Position numbers and translations under genes: made by a program
Shown: positions 1 to 2,575 of the stretch, piece by piece
Layout of the letters: each line of letters begins with the position of its first letter
Position numbering within the stretch: position 1 is the stretch's first letter
DNA from: Alicyclobacillus acidocaldarius subsp. acidocaldarius Tc-4-1
GTDB lineage: Bacteria > Bacillota > Bacilli > Alicyclobacillales > Alicyclobacillaceae
Assembly (NCBI RefSeq): GCF_000219875.1
Contig: NC_017167.1
Coordinates: 2,379,361 to 2,443,360, forward strand
Reading direction: 5' to 3'
DNA: 64,000 nt
Notes under the pieces: model-generated
What the model saw: the letters and a program-made list of their open reading frames with translations, nothing else
What the model was told of the DNA's origin: nothing
Database searches by the model: none

Positions 1-1
1 T

Positions 2-1339
2 CGGCCGGAAGTACAGAGACTGCTACATGCTGTACGAGAGGGAAAGTACAGCGCTGTATTAGTTATGGATATTGATCGACTTGGACGTGGAAACCAGATT
101 GACCAAGGCATTATTCAACAAGCCTTCAAGCAATCCGGAACACTCATTATAACTCCTAGAAAAGTTTACAATCTCGAAGATGAGATAGACGAGGAATTCT
201 CCGAGTTTGAGCAGTTCATGGCCCGCCGTGAACTCAAAATCATTACTCGTCGTATGCAACGCGGAAGAAAGCTTTCGGCAAAAGAAGGGAAGTCGATTAC
301 CCCTTATGTTCCTTTTGGTTACAAGAGGGATGAAAACCTCAAATTATATCCAGACCCCGAAACTGCACCGATCGTCCGTCAAATTTTTGAGTGGAGTGCC
401 GAAGGATTAGGCATCATCAAAATTGCAAAGAAACTGAACGAGATGGGGGTTCCAGCTCCACGCTCGAGTGGTTGGCAGAGAACTACCGTTCAGCATATTT
501 TGAAGAACGAAGTCTATCTTGGACGGATTGTTTGGGATAAGAAGAGGGATGTAAAAACACCTCAGGGGAAATACCGTTCTATCAAACGTCCGCGTGAGGA
601 ATGGATTGTTCACGAGAATGCTCACGAGCCTATTATCTCTCAAGAATTGTGGGATAGAGTTGTGCAAGTCCGTAAGATGAATGATCATCGAACAAAGGAT
701 AACTATGACTTGAAAAACCCCTTTGCAGGGATTTTGAAGTGCAAACAATGTGGACGAGTTATGAAGAGGCAACCTCGCCCAAATCGTAAGGGCGATACTT
801 TTCAGTGCTATACGGTTGGTTGTCCGACGCGAGAGGTCCTCATTTCCAAACTTGAAGATCGCGTTTTGAAATCAATTGAAGAGTTTGTTCAGTCATATGC
901 TGCTCAATCTAGCGTTAAGAAACGTGCTGACAATCGACAAAAGCGACTGGAGACTCTACAGAGACATAAAAGATCAATTCAATCAAAAATCAGCAAACTT
1001 GAGACGCAAAAGAACAGACTGTTTGATTTCCTTGAGCAAGGTGTTTACGACATCCAAACTTTTCTTGAAAGAAGTAAATTGGTGGGTGAACAGCTCGATC
1101 AAGCAAGAGAGGAACTCAGAACTTGTGAGCAAGCTATTGAACGTGAAACGGTTCAACAACAGCATGAGGAAGAATTGATTCCAGCGATCAGCGAGGCTAT
1201 CGAGATGTATAGGTCCGCTTCCAATGCAGAAATTAAAAATATGGCGTTGAAATCAGTTATAAAGGAAATACATTATTACAGACCTCGTTCGTGGCCAAGA
1301 TCCAAGGAATTTGAAATAGATATATATTTCCGCATCTGA
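2..1339 (+). CDS. Large serine recombinase, 5' end cut by window edge
   Basis: Site-specific recombinase of the large serine (resolvase/invertase) class, which integrates and excises phages and mobile elements. The frame is open from base 2, so the N-terminus with the catalytic serine lies outside the window. What is visible starts in the end of the resolvase domain (VLVMDIDRLGRG), then the recombinase domain (PFGYKRDENLKLYPDP), a zinc-ribbon pattern (CKQCG, later CYTVGC), a charged coiled coil of about 90 residues, and a C-terminal tail ending at TGA. The coding sequence is clearly more AT-rich than the rest of the window, which suggests acquired DNA. It points at, and ends about 20 bases from, the broken end of the LysM-GH18 gene, as expected when the recombinase gene lies beside the attachment site of its own element. 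Confidence 0.93.
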   Translation, partial: RPEVQRLLHAVREGKYSAVLVMDIDRLGRGNQIDQGIIQQAFKQSGTLIITPRKVYNLEDEIDEEFSEFEQFMARRELKIITRRMQRGRKLSAKEGKSITPYVPFGYKRDENLKLYPDPETAPIVRQIFEWSAEGLGIIKIAKKLNEMGVPAPRSSGWQRTTVQHILKNEVYLGRIVWDKKRDVKTPQGKYRSIKRPREEWIVHENAHEPIISQELWDRVVQVRKMNDHRTKDNYDLKNPFAGILKCKQCGRVMKRQPRPNRKGDTFQCYTVGCPTREVLISKLEDRVLKSIEEFVQSYAAQSSVKKRADNRQKRLETLQRHKRSIQSKISKLETQKNRLFDFLEQGVYDIQTFLERSKLVGEQLDQAREELRTCEQAIERETVQQQHEEELIPAISEAIEMYRSASNAEIKNMALKSVIKEIHYYRPRSWPRSKEFEIDIYFRI

Positions 1340-1400
1340 GCACTTGATAGTCAAGGAACATCATCGACGACTTAAACCGTAAAGTGACATACCCATCAGG
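1340..1400. other. Junction between inserted element and host gene (candidate att site)
   Basis: AT-rich recombinase DNA gives way to GC-rich host coding sequence here. Read on the minus strand, the GH18 gene runs through a conserved MGMSLYG and then reads LSRR and stop, where relatives continue with Tyr-Asp-Trp and roughly 80-100 more residues. The last codons before the stop (TCA CTT TAC GGT TTA AGT) are AT-rich, unlike the codons before them, so the crossover probably lies at about 1365-1390. The exact core cannot be fixed without the other end of the element. Confidence 0.55.
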
Positions 1401-2356
1401 ATTTTCTTCGGGTCGATTGCGCCCGTGGCGTACTCGAGCACCGATTCCACGCGGTCGGCCGGGGCCACGGGCATGGGCGGTCCGCCGACCCATCCCCACT
1501 CGTACGTCATGAGCATGACAAAGTCCACTTCGTCGCCGAGTGCCGCGTAGTCGAAGGCGCCCATCCACGGCGCGTCCGGTTCGTCCGACGACTTGGGGCC
1601 GAGCGCCACGGAAAGGCTCCATCCTCGCGGGCGCAACGCATTGCCCAGCGCGCGGATAAATGACGTGTAGGCGGCGCGATCGCCCGGGTGCATGTGCTCG
1701 AAGTCGACATTCACGCCGCGGTAGCCCTTCTCTTCGCAGACGCGCACCGCTTGGTCGATCACGCGCTTTATGAGCGCGGGAGAATGGAGAATCGCATGCG
1801 CGAGATCGGGGTTAAAGCGATTGCCGTTGAAATTCGTGAGAGTCGCGAGCGGCGCAATGCGGAATTTGGCTGCGGCTTCGAGCATGGGCTTGTCGTTTGG
1901 CGCGTCGAGATCGCCCGTAGCCTGCACGCGGTAACTGAATGCGCAGACATAGGTGAGTTCGGACACATCCTGCAAGAGGGCGGCGTCGTTCTCGTTCCCG
2001 GCCGGCATCAGATATGCGTTCACCTCGATGGTGCGCCTTTGGGGCCGCGTGCCGGGGATGTTTACCGTAACGCCAATAGGCCATGGTCCATCCTTCGGGA
2101 GTCCCGGGTTCCAATTGGCGATGGCTGCGGGCTCAACGCCATACCGGTGTGCCAGGCGGTCCAGCGTATCACCCGCTCTCACAGCGTGGCGGATAACCCG
2201 AAGTGGCGGGCCTTTGGGAATCAGGAGCGCGATGCCCGGTACGATCACGTCCTTCGACGCGAGCTCGTTGTATCGCAGCAGGTCCCGGAGGGACACCCCG
2301 TACGTCGAAGCGACGTCGTCGAGCGTCTCACCCGGTAGAACGCGGTGAATTTGCAT
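1361..2356 (-). pseudogene. LysM-GH18 spore cortex lysin (SleL/YaaH-like), 3' end lost to insertion
   Basis: Putative N-acetylglucosaminidase acting on spore cortex peptidoglycan. Two LysM repeats lie at residues of about 3-47 and 50-95 (HRVLPGETLDDVASTYGVS; RHAVRAGDTLDRLAHRYGVE), followed by a GH18 barrel with the catalytic stretch GVNVDFEHMHPGD, whose Glu is the expected acid/base. The ATG at 2356 has AGGAGG 8 bases upstream. The product would be 331 residues; SleL/YaaH proteins are usually about 430, and the last barrel strands after SLYG are missing. The gene meets the serine recombinase at its 3' end, so it was probably split by integration. Either it is dead, or it is restored when the element leaves, as happens with sigK and spsM in Bacillus. 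Confidence 0.85.
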
Positions 2357-2575
2357 GAGACGGTCCTCCTTCGCGGCGAGCCTCACTGAAGCCTATGCCA
2401 CAGGTGCCTAGTCTCGTGCGCCTATCCGTGTGAACGCCAACCGCGTCCGAGGCGTCTATCCGTTGAGACCAAATCCCCAAGACGGGCGCTGGCCAAAGTT
2501 TAATTCGAGGCCATTGGGATAAACTGATTGTAGCAAGTTCTTTCATCGATAGATTCTGTCATTCGAGGTGCAAAG

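Follow-up and report, generated by a model that had tools for sequence, protein, structure and literature searches.

A 118-kb element splits a YaaH/SleL-type gene of Alicyclobacillus acidocaldarius and may be excised during sporulation by its own serine recombinase

Elements that split spore genes have been described as skin in sigK of Bacillus and Clostridioides (PMC4191935, PMC517825, PMC10747680), SPbeta in spsM (PMC4191935), and gin in gerE of B. cereus ATCC10987 (PMC5595907). Further split spore genes are spoVFB, spoVR, and yabG, interrupted by vfbin, vrin, and yin, respectively, and the phage MMB025 sits in sigK of Alicyclobacillus acidoterrestris (PMC4191935, PMC10747680, PMC13141910). 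Here, we describe an element of 118,365 bp that splits a yaaH/sleL-type gene in Alicyclobacillus acidocaldarius subsp. acidocaldarius Tc-4-1, and which its own large serine recombinase (LSR) may well excise in the mother cell during sporulation. The best reading of this locus is a gene-intervening element comparable to skin, SPbeta, and gin: the pieces of a sporulation gene lie on the same strand, a short repeat marks both junctions, joining restores the frame, and the LSR gene lies at the right end of the element.

How does this locus compare with the described systems? As far as the available text of those papers goes, skin in sigK shares with it the element's own serine recombinase, a split mother-cell gene, a short core repeat, and a joining that restores the frame. 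Unlike skin, the element described here targets a YaaH/SleL-type gene, spans 118 kb, and carries plasmid- or ICE-like genes; its developmental timing is putative. SPbeta in spsM (PMC4191935, in the portions available) is likewise very large, with the recombinase gene at one end and a spore-maturation target. However, SPbeta is an active prophage, while the present element has no convincing virion gene in the ORFs examined, and the recombinase and target differ. The gin element, according to the accessible part of PMC5595907, is non-phage and encodes several serine recombinases. The elements that we found at a second site of the yaaH/sleL gene in related genomes (site B, described below) likewise lack a shared phage core, and two or more LSRs are encoded in each of four cases (G001, G005, G008, and G052); in contrast to gin, they occupy another target gene and recur in 17 genomes. 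The vfbin, vrin, yin, and MMB025 elements follow the same logic in other spore genes, and the host genus of MMB025, Alicyclobacillus, is that of most of the named relatives with a site-B split; the available text on these four elements makes no mention of yaaH or sleL (PMC4191935, PMC10747680, PMC13141910). The term “yaaH” has no match in the accessible text of PMC13141910, PMC5595907, PMC10747680, or PMC4191935, and our search of the open-licence PMC literature returned no report of yaaH or sleL being split. Elements of this kind are known; the novelty appears to lie in the target gene and the scale.

The window, by which we mean the whole 64,000-nucleotide stretch that was analysed, lies on the single 3.12 Mb contig C1 of this genome (G000), and contains only the final 1.38 kb of the element, which corrects the earlier account. 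The features of the locus are as follows.

G000:C1:2379361-2443360, the source window.
Window 1..1339, plus strand, the 3' part of the LSR gene (whole gene 514 codons, start at L002:19795 = C1:2379155).
Window 1377..1381, minus strand, the right copy of the core TACGG (plus-strand CCGTA), shared by both ends.
Window 1377..2356, minus strand, the 5' piece of the YaaH/SleL-type gene, encoding two LysM domains and GH18 minus its last ~100 residues.
Window 2390..2397, minus strand, the -10-like box CATAGGCT upstream of the YaaH/SleL gene, kept at -41 to -44.
C1:2262372-2262376, the left copy of the core TACGG, at the far end of the element.

A minus-strand ORF (2386-1361) encodes two LysM domains and a GH18 domain. 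Its frame remains open to window position 1361, while its homology breaks off at SLYG, at window position 1377. The LSR gene ends at 1339, 37 bases from the junction core, with its first codons to the left of the window; the preliminary description was therefore right that the gene is truncated at SLYG beside a serine recombinase. The GC content is 0.63 in the SleL ORF vs 0.43 in the LSR gene. The intact homologue of genome G002 extends ~100 residues beyond the truncated piece, and aligns end to end with its closest solved relatives, 4s3k (E 3e-79) and 4s3j (E 2e-73), which are solved YaaH and cortical-lytic enzymes. With two N-terminal LysM domains and a full-length GH18 domain, the split gene is predicted to encode a YaaH/SleL spore peptidoglycan hydrolase, and a role in the spore is suggested by its homology to YaaH/SleL. 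A box resembling CATAGGCT occurs in 10 of the 17 scanned regions upstream of the split gene, and is presumably regulatory.

The missing 3' codons, opening with the YDW motif, had been predicted to lie at the opposite end of the element, with a short direct repeat of the junction. In a tblastn search with the C-terminus of the G002 protein against 120 kb upstream together with the window's first 5 kb (~126 kb), they were found at C1:2262062-2262379, on the same strand and with 91.5% identity to G002 (E 2e-64); the sole further match at E < 0.1 in these ~126 kb was a 19-residue stretch right at the junction. The repeat is TACGG, present at both ends, and the distance from core to core gives the size of the element. 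Joining at TACGG yields MSLYG-YDW in a single open frame of 442 codons, and the rejoined junction reads ...TTTACGGATACGAC... In G002, the gene is uninterrupted and both flanks are collinear with those of G000, the ends overlapping by exactly 5 bases, which indicates a clean insertion rather than a chance truncation. The other YaaH-like genes of the G000 genome are just 43% and 30% identical to the split gene, and therefore the uninterrupted second copy that would have spoken against the earlier proposal is absent. At the level of the sequence, the split is confirmed as real and precise, and the element should be excisable in principle.

What kind of element is this? Its GC content is 0.555, vs 0.60-0.61 in the flanks. 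The LSR matches the Pfam families Recombinase (2e-31), Resolvase (5e-9), and Zn_ribbon_recom (1e-6), and its gene lies in an operon downstream of genes for an HTH protein and an IrrE-like protease, next to a divergently oriented gene for an HTH repressor; it appears to be under an ImmR/ImmA-like control module. We scanned 30 of the 115 listed ORFs with PHROGs and an overlapping set with Pfam. The ORFs examined include those for ParA, ParB, a TraD/HerA-like ATPase (sharing ~29% identity with plasmid TraM-recognition proteins), a primase, helicases, ArdC, a C5 methylase, anti-repressors, TnpB, and a DruA-family protein (L004:314-1435; Pfam, E 2e-105), the last being a possible defence gene. No relaxase was found among them, and the PHROGs scan of the 30 ORFs gave no convincing virion family, with one weak tape-measure match (E 5e-4) inside a ParB-like protein. 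By megablast, the last 20 kb of the element had no match to phages, and another 20 kb, compared with plasmids, had just a short TnpB-like match; an IMG/VR scan with the LSR returned two distant loci (27-28%). A prophage as the default identity was dropped, given the lack of a megablast phage match in those last 20 kb and just these two IMG/VR loci. We read the element from its gene content as plasmid- or ICE-like, and it may alternatively be a phage-plasmid. No directionality factor was identified for it. A tRNA-Thr (TGT) gene also lies inside the element (L004:6167-6239); if this is the sole copy, growing cells could not lose the element.

In the proposed mechanism, the LSR, together with a directionality factor, would cut the element out between the two TACGG copies, and would do so in the mother cell during sporulation. 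Its loss there would cost the spore genome nothing, and the rejoining would confine production of the full enzyme to the mother cell. For the window's element regulated excision is plausible, and would be timed to sporulation. The preliminary description had proposed this skin-like logic of a split gene: every part that the sequence could test came out as predicted, whereas our search upstream of the window's LSR found no mother-cell promoter pattern, and the ImmR/ImmA-like module lies there. Plain disruption is a serious rival for this element, which is apparently recent and under ImmR/ImmA-like control. The element would then be an ordinary plasmid- or ICE-like integrant in a dispensable spore gene, excising for transfer or at random under that control, with the gene off in most cells; we find this quite possible, short of probable. 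Such an integrant would account for a recent insertion, G000 lying beside the intact G002, for the row of HTH, IrrE-like protease, and LSR genes with the divergent repressor, and for the ParA/ParB, TraD/HerA-like ATPase, ArdC, and primase genes aboard, and the 43% and 30% paralogues might cover the lost function. It fits poorly with related LSRs that repeatedly abut cut mother-cell genes (yhbH in 18 genomes, cotJC in one) and with the independent splitting of the same host gene in 17 genomes, where both pieces are under selection wherever this is testable. An artefact of assembly or rearrangement is highly improbable: no point in its favour was found in the single-contig assembly, and the collinear G002 flanks with their 5-base overlap, the LSR at the boundary, and the same architecture in other genomes all argue against it.

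The recurrence that speaks for gene-intervening elements was found in the order at large. Of the order's 59 genomes, 17 have a yaaH/sleL gene that is split at a second site, site B (GGACC, protein GGPPM): G001, G003-G008, G011, G012, G016, G018, G023, G033, G034, G041, G043, and G052. This count leaves out G050, which is ambiguous (one copy passes site B to the contig end, and another 3' piece lies elsewhere), G009, in which a contig end cuts the gene, G014, without a close ortholog, and G046, which has a nearly whole copy with a TAG and an extra 3' fragment. The pieces share one contig in 15 of the 17 genomes and lie on two contigs in G033 and G043, and the element sizes that could be measured range from 3.7 to 41 kb. 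All 17 rejoin in frame (18 of 18 with G000), at cores picked by motif with shared repeats of 2-15 bases, just GG in G043; G016 and G043 have odd C-terminal ends once joined. Since any precise LSR insertion rejoins in frame, this alone is not evidence of regulation. In G046 (L081, L083), the extra 3' fragment lies 21 kb downstream, perhaps as a trace of an earlier element.

Selection on the separated pieces is more informative. We calculated dN/dS by NG86, separately for the 5' and 3' pieces. For G003/G011, dS is 0.97/1.05 and dN/dS 0.045/0.046 (5'/3' piece), and for G006/G011 the values are 1.11/1.21 and 0.038/0.031. The dN/dS values of further pairs are 0.052/0.047 (G007/G012), 0.089/0.073 (G004/G008), and 0.047/0.032 (G003/G006), while G016/G034 gives 0.064 in the 5' piece and 0.175 in the 3' piece; intact pairs with finite values range over 0.058-0.157 / 0.040-0.085. 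Continued constraint on a 3' piece behind an element is not expected unless the piece is joined or put to some other use. Neutral decay is rejected for site B by the dN/dS of both pieces, and may apply to G000. Pairs of site-B LSRs are constrained as well (dN/dS 0.096-0.137), with ~0.10 for G003/G011 and G006/G011 at a dS similar to that of the gene pieces. The elements of G003, G006, and G011 are collinear, and therefore this insertion at site B is older than their divergence. The site-B elements look domesticated, and the combination of recurrent splitting with purifying selection on pieces and recombinase supports a developmental logic; regulated excision at site B is likely.

A tree of 44 proteins, each rejoined or intact, requires a minimum of 6 gains or losses for site B, as compared to a mean of 13.7 after shuffling, with 0 of 500 shuffles as low. 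G000 stands next to the intact G002 on this tree, and its nearest relatives (G002, G013, and G010) are all intact. The insertion in the window therefore appears to be of recent date, and its pieces carry no usable signal of selection; the per-branch counts are small. Across 13 genomes, LSR and gene distances are only weakly correlated (rho 0.287, a value reached in 152 of 5000 permutations). Horizontal exchange is thus likely outside the circle of close relatives, and the elements are not simply tracking the gene.

One LSR family accompanies all 17 site-B splits. Thirteen members were aligned, and are 46-96% identical among themselves and 21-24% identical to the window's LSR, which belongs to an unrelated family. 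The other four are those of G005, G033, G041, and G043. The LSR gene lies within the element in G005 and G041, and beside the 5' piece in G023; in G043, it shares a contig with the 3' piece, at a distance of ~25 kb. A conserved block with an invariant CATA precedes 12 of the aligned LSRs, and a motif-guided search found a small conserved ORF between the CATA block and the LSR for 17 of 20 LSRs. We infer that the block may be a promoter and the small ORF a candidate directionality factor. Beside the -10-like box of these operons lies an RRACARNY stretch, which we take to resemble a SpoIIID site. The regions upstream of spoIVA, located in 9 of 15 cases, contain GCATACC..GCATATATT, which is consistent with CATA as a mother-cell -10 in the order. 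A classic sigK promoter, which according to the available text of PMC517825 has AC and CATA at a 14-16 gap, was rejected for the site-B LSR operons: CATA is present, while AC is missing at that gap. The same source, in the part available, describes a near-complete dependence of spoIVCA on SpoIIID (PMC517825).

Are other spore genes split in the same manner? LSRs related to that of the window (match at E 1e-45) occur in 27 of the 59 genomes, and in 18 of these 27, by coordinates, a cut yhbH directly adjoins the LSR. A first cut site in yhbH (DTSGSMG) is seen as well, with both pieces present in 17 genomes and the 5' piece only in G023. Six genomes (G019, G029, G043, G047, G052, and G053) have yhbH cut at both sites, and the third piece was located in four of them (G019, G047, G052, and G053); in the 12 genomes with the second cut alone, the last ~35 residues of yhbH were not located. 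The dN/dS values of yhbH pairs are 0.012-0.056, a range given without the G045/G046 3' comparison, which is out of frame. In G035 (L187, L225; G035:C2), an element whose LSR resembles the window's cuts cotJC after MWVYE, five codons in, and the rest of the gene lies ~24 kb away on the same contig. G005 may hold a second cotJC case by its sequence, with the pieces on different contigs and the 5' piece not found. Finally, among 65 loci, there are five records (L128, L133, L134, L135, and L142) in which an element of 2.5-4.2 kb, with an LSR related to that of site B, interrupts an HtrA-like protease gene between the codons for its catalytic residues, and all five genes rejoin in frame. Among the 19 loci with an LSR at 45% identity or more, a YaaH/SleL piece lies nearby in 10 and an HtrA-like piece in 5, and for the other 4 no such piece is within reach.

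We lean, on balance, toward the view that the mother-cell genome of this order is a patchwork respliced at several loci, involving at least four genes (yaaH/sleL and yhbH, each at two sites, cotJC, and the HtrA-like protease gene) and two LSR families, with yhbH in six genomes needing two excisions; the rebuilding of split genes in spore formation may be common in the order. To our knowledge, each described case of developmental gene splicing among spore formers involves one element in one gene. In this order as a whole, by contrast, two unrelated recombinases have struck the same gene at two sites, and relatives of both occur in other mother-cell genes. This offers a testable case of terminal mother-cell genes as a preferred harbour for integrative elements, and provides many natural replicates for the rules of att sites, directionality factors, and timing signals. 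It is also a warning for annotation, as spore genes called broken in such genomes may be merely interrupted.

Two smaller observations concern yhbH. At L195 (G053:C6:106500-120500), the three pieces lie within ~12 kb and are separated by two LSRs, one from each family, and the joining of these three pieces would take two excisions. In P. larvae, the prophage genes include a YhbH protein, according to the available part of PMC9341999, and this is perhaps a similar case.
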